This document shows, in pieces, positions 11,408-31,377 of a stretch of DNA of 42,712 nucleotides. The notes below the pieces were generated by a model, which ran no database searches, was not told the origin of the DNA, and saw only the letters and a list, made by a program, of their open reading frames with translations. Numbering within the stretch: position 1 is the stretch's first letter; the number at the start of each line of letters is the position of its first letter. A program made the translations under genes and the position numbers. The stretch spans positions 1 through 42,712 of the forward strand of contig JAURYA010000061.1 of assembly GCA_030654155.1 (NCBI GenBank), written 5' to 3'. This DNA comes from Sulfurimonas sp. Its GTDB lineage: Bacteria > Campylobacterota > Campylobacteria > Campylobacterales > Sulfurimonadaceae.

Positions 11408-12687
11408 TAAGCGAGAGTGAATTTAAAAAGAGAAGAGAATCTTTAGCTAGTAAGTTGCAAAATAGTTCAATCGGGATTATCTTTAGCGCAGAGCCTGCAA
11501 CCCGCTCTAACGACACGCATCATCCATACAGACAAGATAGCAACTTCTACTATTTAACAGGTTTTAAAGAGGACAATTCAACTTTAGTTTTTTTAAAAAC
11601 TAAAAATGAAGTTAAAACAATTCTGTTCGTTCAAAAAAAGGATAAAACATTAGAGCTTTGGAGCGGCGAGCGTTTGGGCGCTAAAGAGGCAAAGAGTAGA
11701 TTTTTAGTAGATGAAATTTATTTGAGTGATGATTTTAAAAAGAAGTTCAAAGAGTTTATAAAAGATAAAAAAAATATATTTTGCGAGCTTGCTTCAAAAA
11801 AAAGAGAAGTAAAAAAGGTTTTAAAACTGACGAAAGATTTTAAAACAAAGCATGACATCAGACCGCTTATACAAAAAATGAGACTTATTAAGTCTGCAGC
11901 GGAGATTGGACTAATAAGAGAGTCAATTGCAATAACAACAAAGGCTCATCACAGAGCTATGAGTATAAATAAAAAAGGGAAGTTTGAGTATCAGTTGCAG
12001 GCTGAAATAGAGCATGAATTTAAAATCAACGCCGCATACAGCGATGCATATACATCTATCGTGGCATGCGGAAACAGCGCAAATACGCTTCACTATATAA
12101 AAAACGACAAACCGCTTGAGGGCGGTGAGCTTATACTCATAGATGCCGGTTGCGAACACAACTACTATGCAAGTGACATAACAAGAACAATCCCCGTAAA
12201 TGGAAAATTTACCAAAGCCCAAAAAGAGCTCTATAACTTAGTTTTAGAAACACAGCTAAAAATCATCGGTATGATTAAGCCGCATGTAAAAAGAACTCAT
12301 TTACAAGAGTGTGCGGAGCAGTTGCTGACAAAAGGGATGATTGAACTTGGTATTTTAAAAGGCAGTTATAAAAAAGTGATTAAATTGCTAAAGCATAAGA
12401 AATACTATCCGCATGGCATAGGACACTGGATGGGGATAGATGTTCATGACCCTGCACCCTATAAAGATGACAAACATCAAGAGATAGCGCTTCAAAAAGG
12501 AATGGTTTTAACTATAGAACCCGGTATTTATATCGATAAGGATGATCAAAGCGTACCGGAAGCGTATCGCGGAATCGGCATAAGAATAGAAGATGATATA
12601 TTGGTTACAAAAGATGGGTATGAAAATCTATCTTCTGGTATTGCAAAAAGTATAGAGGAGATAGAGGCTATCTCTTCTAAATTTTAG
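11404..12687 (+). CDS. pepP: Xaa-Pro aminopeptidase (M24)
   Basis: DAGCEHNYYASDITRTIPVNGKF, HGIGHWMGIDVHD, EPGIYI motifs. Confidence 0.93.
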   Translation: MISESEFKKRRESLASKLQNSSIGIIFSAEPATRSNDTHHPYRQDSNFYYLTGFKEDNSTLVFLKTKNEVKTILFVQKKDKTLELWSGERLGAKEAKSRFLVDEIYLSDDFKKKFKEFIKDKKNIFCELASKKREVKKVLKLTKDFKTKHDIRPLIQKMRLIKSAAEIGLIRESIAITTKAHHRAMSINKKGKFEYQLQAEIEHEFKINAAYSDAYTSIVACGNSANTLHYIKNDKPLEGGELILIDAGCEHNYYASDITRTIPVNGKFTKAQKELYNLVLETQLKIIGMIKPHVKRTHLQECAEQLLTKGMIELGILKGSYKKVIKLLKHKKYYPHGIGHWMGIDVHDPAPYKDDKHQEIALQKGMVLTIEPGIYIDKDDQSVPEAYRGIGIRIEDDILVTKDGYENLSSGIAKSIEEIEAISSKF

Positions 12688-13115
12688 TCGTTATAGCTAT
12701 AGCTCCAACCGGTTAAACTTTTCTCTTTTGCTTCGCCAAAATTCTCAGAATCTGCTAGAAAATCCATAACCAGCATAGGAACATTTGGGATAGCTCTCAT
12801 ATCTTCCTCTTTTACTAAAAGCAGAGGCATTGGAGTCTCTTGAGAACCTTCTGAAAACCCGACAGGCATTATTTGGCTCATAACCTCTATTGGGCTTTTT
12901 ATCTCATTCTCATCTAAAAATTTATCAAAAATAGCCTTCTGGATCTCTTTTGGCAAATTATCAGATGTATTTAAAAAAATAGTAAAATGAATAGGCGTAT
13001 CTTTAAAATGTTCAGGCGCAGGAGCTGCCATAATGATATACTCAACACTGTTTAAGTGTTTTTCTATTTCGCCTGTGTCTAAATATTTCAGAGTTTTTAT
13101 AGCTTTTGCTTCCAA
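12684..13115 (-). CDS. uncharacterised protein at the 3' end of the nap operon
   Basis: 143 aa ORF abutting the next upstream ORF with no gap. Confidence 0.7.
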   Translation of the reverse strand: MEAKAIKTLKYLDTGEIEKHLNSVEYIIMAAPAPEHFKDTPIHFTIFLNTSDNLPKEIQKAIFDKFLDENEIKSPIEVMSQIMPVGFSEGSQETPMPLLLVKEEDMRAIPNVPMLVMDFLADSENFGEAKEKSLTGWSYSYND

Positions 13116-17635: not shown

Positions 17636-20458
17636 TTATGCTTTGTAAATTTTTACAGCACATTTTTTAAAGTCTGTCTGTTTTGACATAGGACATGTCG
17701 CATCCAAACATACTTTGTTGATAAATACTTTTTCATCAAACCAAGGTACAAATACCAACCCTCTTGGAGGTCTGTTTCTACCGCGAGTCTCAACTCTGGC
17801 TTTTACTTTGCCACGACGTGATTCTACCCAGCATAGACCACCTTGTTTAAGGTCTTTGTTTTTTGCATCAGTAGGGTGCATATAGCACAGCGCTTCAGGA
17901 ACAGCACGATAAAGTTCAGGAACACGCATAGTCATGGTACCTGAGTGCCAGTGTTCTAGCACACGACCTGTACATAACCAAGTGTCGTAAGCAGCATCTG
18001 GCATTTCTGGAGGATCCATGTACGGACGAGCAAATATTTTGGCTTTGTTGGCCAACGATTTTTGTTCGGTTTTTGCATCCATTCCACTTAATGTACCAAA
18101 TTTAAGCGCTTTTGCAATTTGTCCATAGAAAGCGTGTGAATTACCGCTCTCTTTAGTTGCTTTTGCCGCATATGGGTCATACTTAGCGTTAAATCTCCAT
18201 GCCGTCTCTTTACCGTCAACAACAGGCCATTTAAGACCACGTACTTTATGGTACATGTTAAATGGAGCCAAATCGTGACCATGTCCACGAGTAAATGCAG
18301 CGTACTCTTCAAAAAGATATTTTTGAATAAAGAAGCCGTAACCTTTAAACACTTTTCCGTCACTTCCTACAACATTTCTGCTGTCTCCATACCCCTCAGA
18401 GTTATCATACCCTTTTTGGATTGCGTCACTTTGGTCAAGTTGGTAAGATTTAGCAGTTTTGTTGGCAAAAAGTATATCGAACATAGTACTATTTTCACTA
18501 TATCCCATCGCTTTTGCTTTCTCTATAACACTTGGAAGAGCCTCTTTTCTTGCACCGCTTGGAGCCCATTCACCCCATAAATCTTTAACAGTAAATCTTT
18601 TAGAGAGCTCAACCCACTGCCAAGTATCACTCATAGCGTCACCGACAGGGAGAACTTGTTGTCTCCAGTGTTGTGTACGACGCTCAGCATTACCGTAAGC
18701 TCCCCACTTTTCATAAATCATAGCAGAAGGCAAGATAAGATCTGAAACTTTAGCCGAGATACCAGGGTATCCATCAGAAGTAACAATAAAGTTATCCATT
18801 TCGCGAGCTGCTTTAATCCAGTGATGAGCAGATGCAGAATCTTGGTAAGGATTACAAACATTTACCCATGCAAATTTAACTAAACCATCTTCGATATCTC
18901 TATGGATTTTCATAATGTGTTGCACGCCAACAGCGTTTAGAGTTCCCTCAGGAATCATCCATTTGTTTTCTGCAATTTTTCTATGTGCAGGATTTTCAAC
19001 CATCATATCGGCTGGCAATCTATGTGTAAATGTACCAACTTCACGAGCAGTACCGCAAGCAGAAGGTTGACCAGTTAATGAGAATGCACCATCACCAGGA
19101 TTAGCTTGTTTATTTAGTAAAAAGTGAACATTATAAGCAAGTGTGTTAACCCAAGTACCGCGAGTATGTTGATTCATACCCATTGTCCAAAAAGATACGA
19201 CCTTTCTGCCTTTTTCAATATAGAGATTAGCTAACTGTTGAAGTTTTTCTTTAAATACTTCAACATTTTCATCAGGGTCGCCTTTTACTATAGCAGCCGT
19301 GTACTCTAATGTGTATGGTGCTACTGATTTTTTATAATCTTCGTATGAAATTTCCCAGTGAGCCAGAGTTCCTGCTTGATGATTCATTGTATCACCGGCT
19401 TTATAGCCATAAGGTTCTAATGCAGGACCCTCTTTTTTGGAAACAATAGTCTTCATCTCTTTAGAGACGATTTCCATCTCTTTAGCACTATACTTTCCAT
19501 CTTTAAGTGACTTTTCGCCCTCTCTTCTAAGTCCGTAACCAATATTTACCGGACCAGCTGCAAAAATCATATGTTTTTTAACAAAATCCCAATCAATAAT
19601 TTTTTCAGCATCGTCTCTCATAACTATTTCTCTAGCGATGTAGTTCCATAGAGCGCCATCTGTATTTGGTGAGAAGATGATTTCAGTATCAGCTAAATCC
19701 GATGTTCTATGAGTATAAGTTTGTATTGATATAACTTTTACTCTATCAGGATTTGATAGTTTTCTGTCTGTAACACGAGACCAAAGAATAGGGTGCATTT
19801 CAGCCATATTTGAACCCCAAGATACAATCGTATCAGTTAGTTCGATATCGTCATAACATCCTGAAGGCTCATCAACACCGAATGTTTGATAAAAACCAAC
19901 AACTGCAGATGCCATACAGTGACGAGCATTTGGATCTATCGCATTTGAGCGAAATCCTGCTTTCATCATTTTTAGAGCTGTATAACCTTCCATAATTGTG
20001 TATTGACCTGATGCAAATACTGCAACAGACTCCGGTCCGCCATGTTTAAGCGCTTTTTTGATGTGAACTTCCATCTCATCGTAAGCTCTTTGCCATGATA
20101 CTGGAACAAATTTACCTTTTTTGTCAAACTTACCGTCAGCGCCAACTCTAAGTAGCGGTTGAGTAAGTCTATCAGCACCGTACATAATCTTAGCATTAAA
20201 GTAACCTTTAATACAGTTAAGACCACGATTTACAGGTGCAGCCGGGTCTCCTTTGACAGCAACGATTTTACCGTTTTTTGTTGCCATCATAATACCACAA
20301 CCAGTACCACAGAAACGACAAGCCGCCTTGTCCCATCTCCAGTCCCCTTCAGCTTGGTTTGCCGCTGCTTCTAGCTCCGCTGGTACACTCATACCAATCG
20401 CCGCTGCTGCAGATGCCGCCGCTGAACTTTTAAGAAATTCTCTTCTTGAAAGTGACAT
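17636..20458 (-). CDS. napA: periplasmic nitrate reductase large subunit NapA (start corrected to [10 protein letters not shown])
   Basis: Tat signal [29 protein letters not shown] 4Fe-4S, molybdopterin oxidoreductase length and motifs. Confidence 0.97.
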
Positions 20459-20545: not shown

Positions 20546-20558
20546 TTGATAATATCAC
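20546..20558. promoter_or_regulatory. inverted repeat TTGATAATATCAC upstream of napA
   Basis: TGATA-A-TATCA perfect around one central nt; FNR-like half sites but 1 nt short spacing. Confidence 0.35.
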
Positions 20559-20577: not shown

Positions 20578-20591
20578 TTGACTTAAGTCAT
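20578..20591. promoter_or_regulatory. candidate Crp/Fnr-family operator TTGACTTAAGTCAT upstream of napA
   Basis: Perfect 12-bp palindrome TGACTTAAGTCA, Crp/Fnr geometry (TTGAC-N4-GTCAT), about 120 bp upstream of the napA start. Confidence 0.55.
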
Positions 20592-20677: not shown

Positions 20678-21697
20678 TTATGATTCTTTATTCTTAAGCT
20701 CTTGGCAACTTTTAATAAGCTTATCCAGCTCTTTTTTTAAATTTGTTAATTTTTTTGTAGAGTTTATAAGCTCTTCGGTTGATTCTATAACTATGTCTTC
20801 GCTGTTGTTTAGGTGTTTTGATGCCAATGATTTATCTTTTAATTCTATTAAAATGGTATCAAACTCATCGGTTAGCTCTTCTAATTTTGATGAGGCTTTT
20901 TGAGATTGAAGCAATGCCTCATTTGAGTGTTCAACAGCAGAGTTTATCTTGTTTATAAAACAGTTTATAGTATCACTCACTTCAACAATCTCGATTTCAC
21001 TCTCTGCCTCAAGTTTGATAGGGGTAAGGTTTGATATATCCTCATTATCCACAAGCATTTTGGAGTACTGCATAAAAGAGTCAACGTGTGATTCAATCGA
21101 TTTTAATTGCATAAGAGAGTATAAAAACAGAAGGAAGAGTATTGCTCCGGAAGAGTATTGAAAACTTTTAATAAAGTTTGTTTTATCTTCACTGTGATTT
21201 GTGTACATTGTTACCAGCTTATCAACGTTGTTAAGCAGTATGGTGTTGTGTTTGTATATGGAAGCGACAATAAGTTCCAGCTCCTGGGTTTTTTTAACTT
21301 CTGAGCTTGAAAGCAGTTTAAAATTTTGAACATCTTCATAAAACTTTTCCCACAGTTTGCTCACTTCAACAAGCTGATTTGATATCTCATGTGTAGGTGC
21401 TACCAATATTCCTTTGTCATGGTTTCCATGTTTTAGAGTATTTAAGCCGTCAATAAATTCATCACATGCAGAATTTAATTCATAAAAATCTTGGGTGGAG
21501 TTATAGTATACATAAAAGATGTTTTTTGCTATTTTCTGAGTCAGCATTCTCTGTTTGCCTGCAATATTTATAACAAGAGCATCTTTAATATTTTGTTGAT
21601 TTAAATATATTGTCGTTCCTATTACACTGGCCATCAGAAATATTAACAGGGCACCGATAAGCTTTATTTTTGTGCTGATTTTATTTGGTTTTATCAT
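20678..21697 (-). CDS. membrane sensor with PilJ/NIT-type (type IV pili MCP N-terminal) domain, no output domain
   Basis: Two TM segments, NIAGKQRMLTQKIAKN signature similar to the nitrate-binding P-box/PilJ domain, coiled-coil C-terminus. Confidence 0.8.
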   Translation of the reverse strand: MIKPNKISTKIKLIGALLIFLMASVIGTTIYLNQQNIKDALVINIAGKQRMLTQKIAKNIFYVYYNSTQDFYELNSACDEFIDGLNTLKHGNHDKGILVAPTHEISNQLVEVSKLWEKFYEDVQNFKLLSSSEVKKTQELELIVASIYKHNTILLNNVDKLVTMYTNHSEDKTNFIKSFQYSSGAILFLLFLYSLMQLKSIESHVDSFMQYSKMLVDNEDISNLTPIKLEAESEIEIVEVSDTINCFINKINSAVEHSNEALLQSQKASSKLEELTDEFDTILIELKDKSLASKHLNNSEDIVIESTEELINSTKKLTNLKKELDKLIKSCQELKNKES

Positions 21698-22362
21698 GTC
21701 AGTTCACCCCTGTATGTATTTTTTAGCATCTCTTTGTCTAAGATAATGACATCTGTATTTTCTATATCTATAATGGAACTTCTTTTTAATTTTTTTAGAA
21801 CTCTAGAGAGAGTTTCAGGTTGAATGTGCAACATAAAAGAGATCTCATGTCTTTTAAGCGAGTTGAACATCTCTAAATCATTGTAAAGAGTAAAAGCAAC
21901 TTTCGCCGTCGCATCAAAAACAAGTTCTCTGTTTACAACGCAGTGAAGCTGCTGTGTTTTTAGCAGTATCTCATTTATAAACTCATTGTTTAGGATGTTT
22001 TTCGATAAAAATTCCGTTTTTAGTTCCTGAAAATTAACTTCCAGCACAATGCTCTCTTCCATAAATTCGGCATTTGAAAAACAGTGTATTGCGTTATCAT
22101 CTAGCGTTGTAAGTTCAGATATAAGAGAATTTTTATGTATGTGGTAGAGAAATATCTCGTTTTCAAATTTATCTATTTTGTAAACTTTTAAAAGCCCTGA
22201 AACTAAAAAAAAGAGTTTGTTGCTGGAGTCGTTTTCATAATAGAGTATTGAATTTTTTGGGTAGGTGGTTATTTTTGAGATGCTGTCGATAATATCCAAT
22301 TTTTCACTATCAAGAGAGTTGAAAAAAGATAGCTGTTTTATAAAATTTAATTTTTCATTCAT
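21694..22362 (-). CDS. Crp/Fnr-family transcriptional regulator
   Basis: cNMP-binding-like N-terminus and HTH (FMLHIQPETLSRVLKKLKRSSII); no N-terminal Cys cluster. Confidence 0.9.
   Translation of the reverse strand: MNEKLNFIKQLSFFNSLDSEKLDIIDSISKITTYPKNSILYYENDSSNKLFFLVSGLLKVYKIDKFENEIFLYHIHKNSLISELTTLDDNAIHCFSNAEFMEESIVLEVNFQELKTEFLSKNILNNEFINEILLKTQQLHCVVNRELVFDATAKVAFTLYNDLEMFNSLKRHEISFMLHIQPETLSRVLKKLKRSSIIDIENTDVIILDKEMLKNTYRGELT
22324..22347. repeat. copy 1 of a 24-bp direct repeat (AAAAGATAGCTGTTTTATAAAATT)
   Basis: 23/24 identity with 22437-22460. Confidence 0.8.
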
Positions 22363-22518: not shown

Positions 22519-23775
22519 ATGAATTTTATAGAGGCTTTGAAATTAAAAAGTAAACTTTTTTTTATTTTCATTATTATTACCGTAGGTCTTCTATTTATTG
22601 GGATTATGGGCGCAATAAACTTAAACTCAATGAAAAAAAATCTAGATTCGCTATATTTTGGCTCATTTGTTCCTGTAATTGAACTAAATACTATTCTTCA
22701 AACATATCATGGAAATTTAGCAAGTAGCATATATAAAGCAAAAAATATGCAAATTACTCCATATGGGGTAAAGTTACAAATCAAACTTTCAATAAATACA
22801 ATCGAGAGAGAGTGGAAAAACTACGAGGCTCATTTTAAAAGAAATGGAGAGGCAGAATATGTTGAGTATGTTGCAGCAGAAATAAAAGATACAAACAGAT
22901 ATTTTTATACTATTTTAGAAGCCATTGAAAATGGTCATGACGCAAAAGATTTAGTAATGAGTAATGTTGAGAAAAAAATTACCCATATCCACGAAGTAGT
23001 AAATAAGTTGATTGATTACGAAGTAGAAGTCGCCAAGTATGAGCGAAAAGCTTTTTTAAACGTATATGGCTCTATTTTACTAAAAGTTGGTTCGATATTG
23101 GGCATCGTAATTTTCAGTGTTATGATAATCTCATTTTATGTGTTTAAAAGTATCCAGAGTAATCAAACAGCTCTTGAAATAGCTACAAAAAAACTAAAAA
23201 TAGCAAATAAAAAGCTAGAAAATGCTTCATACACTGACACTTTAACTGGACTTCACAATAGAAGATATTTCAATCTAATTTATGATAGAGAGATAAAAAG
23301 GGCTAAAAGAAATCACAGTTATATAACTTTTATGATGCTTGACATAGACTATTTTAAGCAGTATAACGACACATATGGACATATAGAGGGAGATGCGGCT
23401 CTTAAGAGTGTTGCAAAAGTTTTTAAAGATATTTTAAAACGTCCGAGTGACTTTGTTTTTAGACTTGGAGGTGAAGAGTTTGGAATTCTTCTCACAGAGA
23501 CGCCTGAATCGAACAGTACGGTAGTTGCTAGTAATATTTGTGATGCTATAAAGGCGCGGGAGATTAAGCATGCGGGCTCAAAAGTAAATAATTTTTTGAC
23601 TGTTTCTATTGGTGTGGCTTGTTGTATAGCCGATGAAGCGCTTAATGAAGAGGTTTTGATAAGTCGTGCTGATGAGATGCTCTACAGTGCAAAAGAGAGA
23701 GGAAGAGATAGATATAGCATAACTACAAACATAAGCGTGGCAACTCCGCATGTGGCGGAGGAGACAAGCGCTTAA
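22519..23775 (+). CDS. diguanylate cyclase (4HB-type MCP sensor + GGDEF)
   Basis: RLGGEEFGILL active site with RPSD I-site 5 residues upstream; two TMs flanking helical sensor. Confidence 0.92.
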   Translation: MNFIEALKLKSKLFFIFIIITVGLLFIGIMGAINLNSMKKNLDSLYFGSFVPVIELNTILQTYHGNLASSIYKAKNMQITPYGVKLQIKLSINTIEREWKNYEAHFKRNGEAEYVEYVAAEIKDTNRYFYTILEAIENGHDAKDLVMSNVEKKITHIHEVVNKLIDYEVEVAKYERKAFLNVYGSILLKVGSILGIVIFSVMIISFYVFKSIQSNQTALEIATKKLKIANKKLENASYTDTLTGLHNRRYFNLIYDREIKRAKRNHSYITFMMLDIDYFKQYNDTYGHIEGDAALKSVAKVFKDILKRPSDFVFRLGGEEFGILLTETPESNSTVVASNICDAIKAREIKHAGSKVNNFLTVSIGVACCIADEALNEEVLISRADEMLYSAKERGRDRYSITTNISVATPHVAEETSA

Positions 23776-30834: not shown

Positions 30835-31377
30835 ATGCAGATATCGTCAAACATGGGTGTTTTGAGCTCTACAAAAAACATAGTGCCTGTTAAAACTCTT
30901 TTTACCGAGAAGATTTCAAAAGATGATGCGAAAGAGATAAAAGAGCAGATTAAGCAAAATGCAAACGCTATTGCTTTTAATTCAGCCTCTATTCAGGGTG
31001 CTGTTACAAGCAAAAAAGATAATTTTAAAGGAGAGTATGAGGATTTTCAAACCTTTCTCAAAGATATAGGTTATGATGGAAAGCCAATAGCGGAACTCTC
31101 AAAAGAAGAGGCTTCCGCACTTGTAAGTGAAGATGGCTTTTTTGGTGTAAAACAAACATCTGATAGAATCGCCAATTTTGTTATAGACGGGGCAGGTGGA
31201 GATGAAGATAGATTTCGTGCCGGCCGTGAGGGGATGATACAAGGATTTAAAGAAGCTGAGGCTATGTGGGGAGGCAAGCTTCCAGAAATTTCACAGCAAA
31301 CTATGGCAAAAGCTATAGAGATGGTTGATAAAGCGATGTATGATTTAGGTTTTTCTATATTGGATGAAGAGGCTTAA
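30835..31377 (+). CDS. uncharacterised protein of the family often labelled 'hydrogenase-4 component G' in Campylobacterota
   Basis: 180 aa; FVIDGAGGDEDRFRAGREGMIQGFKEAEAMWGGKLPEISQQTM motif. Confidence 0.65.
   Translation: MQISSNMGVLSSTKNIVPVKTLFTEKISKDDAKEIKEQIKQNANAIAFNSASIQGAVTSKKDNFKGEYEDFQTFLKDIGYDGKPIAELSKEEASALVSEDGFFGVKQTSDRIANFVIDGAGGDEDRFRAGREGMIQGFKEAEAMWGGKLPEISQQTMAKAIEMVDKAMYDLGFSILDEEA

Follow-up and report, generated by a model that had tools for sequence, protein, structure and literature searches.

How does a membrane protein built like the input half of a nitrate sensor pass on what it senses when nothing recognizable follows at its output end? The question is raised by two adjacent genes on the minus strand next to the nap cluster of a Sulfurimonas genome assembled in 153 contigs. 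One of these contigs, 42,712 nts in length, is the window analyzed here. A preliminary description, made from the letters alone, took the two genes for an undescribed system in which a PilJ/NIT-like sensor signals to a translationally coupled Crp/Fnr regulator by direct contact or sequestration rather than phosphorylation.

The two ends of the sensor

The sensor gene (20678–21697, minus strand) specifies a protein of 339 aa in which the only Pfam match is PilJ (PF13675, E 3.2e-21, residues 31–123). A sequence profile search gave PilJ again (E 2.5e-19) and the Pseudomonas aeruginosa chemoreceptor McpN (3e-13). The AlphaFold2 model (pLDDT 79, with a cytoplasmic part of low confidence, about 44–69) runs in the order TM1, periplasmic four-helix bundle, TM2, HAMP-like helix pair and C-terminal helical hairpin, the hairpin helices being modeled at 235–289 and 300–338. 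The top PDB structures found for it by Foldseek are those of NarQ comprising sensor, TM and HAMP (E 2e-5; on target, TM-score 0.77) and the nitrate-binding domain of McpN (0.82–0.84). The HAMP-like region, about residues 200–253 (20939–21100, minus strand), matches the NarQ HAMP fragment, though in a low-confidence part of the model.

The nitrate motif of McpN, [IVL]-[ND]-x-A-G-x-Q-R-M-L-[ST]-Q, is fitted at every letter, starting at residue 43, by the sensor's N-box or P-box, INIAGKQRMLTQ (residues 43–54, 21536–21571, minus strand), which includes Gly47 and Arg50. The pattern is a published one, and in McpN nitrate is held by a conserved arginine, R61 (PMC6381276). Arg50 is predicted to be the nitrate-binding residue here, without binding data. 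On each sequence test that could be applied, the input half comes out as a NarQ/McpN-type nitrate sensor, nitrate binding itself being inferred. The two TMs and the NarX/PilJ-like nitrate signature of the preliminary description are thus present in the model, the PilJ match and the exact N-box, and the N-box adds to its reading of the protein as a nitrate/nitrite sensor.

The resemblance ends at the cytoplasmic side. With NarX/NarQ-NarL/P of E. coli the sensor shares the periplasmic four-helix form, the P-box GxxR, the TM pair and the HAMP-like region, and NarQ fragments are its best structural matches, but it has no DHp/CA kinase, there is no response regulator, and its neighbor is a Crp/Fnr protein. 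DHp and catalytic domains were not found in 31 diverse homologues either, and as the sensor stops at 339 aa it does not qualify as a nitrate-sensing histidine kinase. Nor, lacking an MCP signaling domain, does it qualify as a methyl-accepting chemoreceptor: McpN has the PilJ domain family and N-box in common with it, but ends in an MCP signaling domain where the window sensor ends in a short hairpin. PilJ is the sole domain common to the 31 homologues, and no kinase, GGDEF or MCP domain was found by Pfam in the sensor or in common among them, just as the preliminary description had it. The HMM check that could have overturned that view, for a hidden known output domain, was run with Pfam and NCBIfam and revealed none in the sensor or common to the 31 homologues. 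PilJ domains are listed in regulators, kinases, chemoreceptors and cyclases, and the part of the source at hand names no kinase-less sensor paired with a Crp (PMC6381276).

What the sensor does have at this end is conservation. Outside the N-box it peaks largely in the last helix (E300, D301, I304, E308, L310, L317, L320 and L324), with block 301–310 almost equal to the N-box itself. Residues 300–324 (20726–20800, minus strand), the most conserved cytoplasmic stretch, are a candidate Crp contact site for which there are no contact data. The conserved positions are common to nap-type and nos-type sensors, single and tandem, which is what would be expected if the helix talks to a common Crp partner. 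[In many of the relatives, those from Helicobacter and Sulfurospirillum among others, PilJ occurs twice in tandem, and the nap-linked ones usually keep both boxes.] No natural sensor-Crp fusion was seen among the frames listed, of which the longest, 477 aa, is too short for one; this survey was not exhaustive.

The Crp/Fnr neighbor and the constancy of the pairing

The regulator (21694–22362, minus strand; 222 aa) has cNMP_binding and HTH_Crp_2 as its only Pfam matches above cut-off, and its recognition helix, QPETLSR, carries the E..SR of the TTGA type. Cys94 and Cys141 are its only cysteines, so that the FNR cysteine cluster is absent, as had been noted, and it is not an FNR proper with a [4Fe-4S] cluster; the cAMP R-S motif is absent too. 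Its cNMP-binding fold, HTH_Crp_2, E..SR helix and operator place it in the Nss group of the Crp/Fnr superfamily. [At the position of Cys94, 162 of 245 paired Crps have Cys and 52 have Ser; the position might be of significance for redox or for partner specificity.] The crp stop and sensor start share the ATGA at 21694–21697 (minus strand), which is the 4-nt overlap already described, and −4 is the commonest crp-sensor spacing (71 of 245 pairs).

The earlier prediction that the gene pair is conserved holds to an unusual degree. There are 252 distinct tail-bearing PilJ proteins, and for all 249 that are testable a Crp is encoded directly upstream, 245 being paired automatically and 4 by inspection; the remaining 3 are cut by contig ends. 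Narrower samples agree: the first 29 neighboring loci (L003–L031) wherever the contig reaches that far, all 40 loci fetched outside the genus in a phylum-wide profile search, and 75 of 81 frames in the best 80 named loci. The other six frames reflect contig ends, broken frames and ORF-calling artefacts. As these best 80 are Campylobacterota or metagenome bins with looser labels, the scope of the pairing is limited accordingly. On being followed up, the seeming exceptions were of several kinds: L011, L158, L205 and L220 are at contig ends, L008 and L018 have a partial Crp at the contig start, L201 and L206 have broken sensor frames, and L163 and L251 are ORF-calling artefacts. A relative of the sensor is present in 126 of 200 sampled genomes of the family, and the pair occurs throughout the Campylobacterales, in at least seven families of the order, with Helicobacter, Sulfurospirillum, Arcobacter and Sulfurimonas among the records.

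The pairing is equally strict from the side of the regulator. The paired Crps fall together in a single clade of the Crp tree (SH-aLRT 100), and Crps outside it have no PilJ partner; the sole unpaired row left inside the clade after checking is a long-branch row with 24% identity. When five genomes were searched for all their Crps, each of the seven strong matches was paired with PilJ and none of the ten weaker ones was. The linkage is far beyond chance, though strict operon pairing can reflect co-expression alone.

The gene on the other side of the pair is a divergent one, for a 4HB_MCP-GGDEF diguanylate cyclase (22519–23775). It is kept in this place in most genomes of the genus, and as a partner it was rejected, since among the loci examined none from outside the genus showed it beside the pair.

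Which Crp this is can be judged by comparison with a relative genome of 2,110,355 bp having three Crp matches, which is presumed to be that of Wolinella succinogenes. The window Crp is 44, 32 and 26% identical to the three. The 44% Crp is nap-linked and is the only one of them with a PilJ partner, and the 26% Crp is directly upstream of nosZ. In W. succinogenes NssA mediates the response to nitrate, NssB that to NO and NssC that to N2O (PMC6682613). The nap-linked Crp of Nitrosophilus labii is 44.8, 29.2 and 26.1% identical to NssA, NssB and NssC, respectively (PMC11539149). By identity profile and nap linkage only, without an accession, the window Crp is assigned to the NssA of Wolinella, its role in nap induction being inferred. 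It shares with NssA/NssB/NssC, and with NssR of Campylobacter jejuni, the TTGA-N6-TCAA operator and the nap target. The differences are that a sensor partner goes unmentioned in such Nss literature as was accessible, and that NssB- and NssC-like Crps have no PilJ partner.

The claim of an undescribed system has therefore to be divided. The regulator is by its identity profile one whose nitrate response is already published. The sensor does appear undescribed: no paper naming it was found in a literature search, though mention of the neighbor gene in Kern and Simon 2016 is not excluded. Campylobacterota regulate nitrate respiration, although orthologues of NarP and FNR are reported to be absent from them (PMC6682613), and how the Nss regulators sense their signals, nitrate included, was called unresolved in a 2021 review (PMC8139620). 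As judged from these comparisons the sensor most likely belongs to NssA, and most likely it is the missing nitrate sensor of a large bacterial group whose nitrate-sensing step has been described as unknown. The pair supplies a concrete candidate for that open step, and predicts the helix through which it has its output.

Co-expression without touching remains the basis of one alternative, in which the sensor works through another partner, such as a chemotaxis array or a PilJ kinase or cyclase with which it forms a heterodimer, and the Crp is itself the detector, of NO, of redox or of a small molecule. No contact signal was given by mean-field DCA on the 245 pairs (Neff 158, gap-dominated), the top Crp-tail z being 6.6 vs 7.8 for the Crp-periplasm control, a result which at this depth weighs neither for contact nor against it. 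Related Nss regulators do respond to NO or N2O with no PilJ neighbor. However, the sensor is matched exclusively, one to one, with a single Crp clade, the pair has been duplicated as a unit, and suitable other partners are scarce. The sensor has no MCP tip, it is the only protein of the source genome in which PilJ passes the Pfam cut-off, which leaves none to act as kinase partner, and the presumed W. succinogenes genome has only one other, likewise without an output domain. Such independence of the two proteins is considered improbable.

[That other PilJ protein of the presumed W. succinogenes genome (L140:1369-2109, G354; 246 aa) has an SGKQRMLAQRI box and is a second effector-less type, with neither the HAMP-like part nor the sensor tail, and no adjoining Crp.]

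The nap operator and a copy of the pair at nosZ

Directly downstream of the sensor is napA (17636–20458, minus strand), the first gene of napAGHBFLD (to 13419), the presumed target. NapA is present in all 54 genomes with a nap-type sensor vs 141 of 200 overall (P = 1.3e-10), and so the co-occurrence check bears out the association with nap made in the preliminary description. The sensor often precedes napA, which, with this co-occurrence, might suggest a structural or transport helper of Nap without a role in transcription. That notion can hardly be sustained, as the pair also occurs beside nosZ and in places where both nap and nos are lacking, and it is always with Crp rather than with napA that the sensor stays. 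Where nap sits elsewhere in the genome, the pair is kept together, and NapA is encoded in 27 of 28 such genomes.

Between sensor and napA is a putative Crp operator, ATGACTTAAGTCAA (20578–20591, minus strand), with one mismatch to TTGACnnnnGTCAA. It is the only match in the window, but as 1.5 chance matches would be expected in 42.7 kb its weight comes from its conservation. Among the nap-linked loci, 89 of 115 have TTGAC-N4-GTCAA, with no or one mismatch, downstream of the sensor gene, and so do 50 of the 51 that are nos-linked; shuffled sequence gives about 1 and 0.4, respectively. A −10-like hexamer, TATTAT (20549–20554, minus strand), begins 23 nts after the operator and puts it near −41.5/−42.5. 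In most nap loci, and at nos loci too, a −10-like TAnnnT is 22 or 23 nts beyond the operator. From this fixed spacing the operator center is deduced to lie near −41.5 of the napA and nosZ promoters, as is usual for class II activators. The preliminary interpretation gains from this conserved operator at napA. Before crp, in the nap group, exact operators are absent and only one locus in 26 has an operator with a single mismatch, fewer than the 4 expected from shuffling, so that autoregulation is not indicated in that group.

The source genome has a second pair, directly upstream of nosZ (Crp 47% and sensor 30% identical to those of the window). [It is at L032:7953-9548 (G000:C24), the nosZ is of clade II, and it has about 50 relatives.] In the Crp tree the nos-linked clade arises once from among the paired Crps. 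GxxR is kept in 114 of 115 nap-adjacent vs 1 of 51 nos-adjacent sensors, the latter carrying N-x-x-K (NEQKAFTQ) in its place. The sole nos-adjacent sensor with GxxR (L078/L086:7467-9142) is from another family (G386), has an intact nitrate box, and is an independent move of a nap-type pair to nosZ. Changes of the P-box arginine, to lysine included, make NarQ/NarX ligand-insensitive (PMC8199190), and for this reason the nosZ-linked sensors probably answer to a signal other than nitrate. Since the contrast between GxxR and NxxK is essentially one evolutionary event, it counts as a strong correlation and not as many independent ones. The two paralogous Crps appear to have one operator in common, in which case it would be the sensors that confer specificity. 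In bacteria that consume N2O, a greenhouse gas, the nosZ-linked paralogue is a candidate for the control of N2O respiration.

Passage of the signal from sensor to Crp

What is established, at the level of sequence, is that the pairing is obligate, that the sensor has the nitrate motif but no output domain, and that the operator and its spacing are as described. The reading preferred, and thought to be probably right, is that the pair is a dedicated nitrate signaling system free of phosphorylation, in which the sensor hairpin touches the Crp, holds it without nitrate and releases it with nitrate. Periplasmic nitrate would bind the N-box at the sensor dimer interface and, as in NarQ, the signal would pass the membrane via TM2 and the HAMP-like region. 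It would end in the short conserved helical hairpin, driving no kinase but touching the Crp/Fnr protein. The likeliest sign is that without nitrate the sensor would keep the Crp inactive at the membrane, and that nitrate would release it for class II activation of napA from TTGAC-N4-GTCAA at about −41.5. In the absence of interaction data the contact, the tail as its site and the hold-and-release sign are all inferences. If they are right, phosphotransfer is not needed for an input module of the NarQ type to drive a Crp/Fnr protein.

Hold-and-release is preferred on two grounds: nothing in the sensor is catalytic, and the Crp has to get to the DNA. The same pair could work with the opposite sign, the nitrate-bound sensor contacting and activating the Crp by co-activation or dimer ordering, with no sequestration when nitrate is lacking. 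NssA being an activator under nitrate, and the operator being at the class II position, fit that equally well. A membrane-bound Crp would then have to activate the promoter from where it is, for which release is the simpler solution; no data decide, and the opposite sign is held to be the less likely one, though not so unlikely as the two proteins never touching.

For release from a membrane partner the closest working analogy is with the LytTR systems HdrRM and BrsRM, where the two genes are for a transcription regulator and its transmembrane inhibitor, and no phosphotransfer is involved (PMC6193735). It is one of working only: their regulators are of the LytTR family and positively autoregulated, whereas the window regulator is Crp/Fnr by Pfam, with no conserved operator before the crp-sensor genes of the nap group, and so is not of LytTR type, and inhibition by its sensor is inferred. 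In Thermus DrpAB-DnrT, which does without NarXL, protein contact has likewise been proposed as the way in which a nitrate signal gets to an activator of the CRP family, but there DrpA is periplasmic and DrpB is a membrane-attached cytoplasmic protein (PMC7694296). That a membrane protein can form a complex with a CRP-like regulator has been demonstrated with CyaC and Clr (PMC10463352).

A broader reading is offered only tentatively. It is that, besides kinase and chemoreceptor, there may be a third nitrate route in which a NarQ-like sensor gates a Crp/Fnr protein by contact, and that this route may have been duplicated so that two ligand motifs feed one operator, the NxxK copy at nos sensing a downstream signal, e.g. 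N2O.

The window as a whole has no Rfam match, and elsewhere in it the proteins encoded at 30835–31377 and 12684–13115 are without any Pfam match. Near the contig start is a gene for a DUF1016/YhcG-type PDDEXK nuclease (804–1811). In other loci the end of the nap cluster repeatedly has a gene, often following napD or napL, for a small PAS protein with a single domain and about 150–175 aa (L034:5901-6425, L037:5879-6400, also L039 and L049–L051), which is a possible redox partner of nap regulation.
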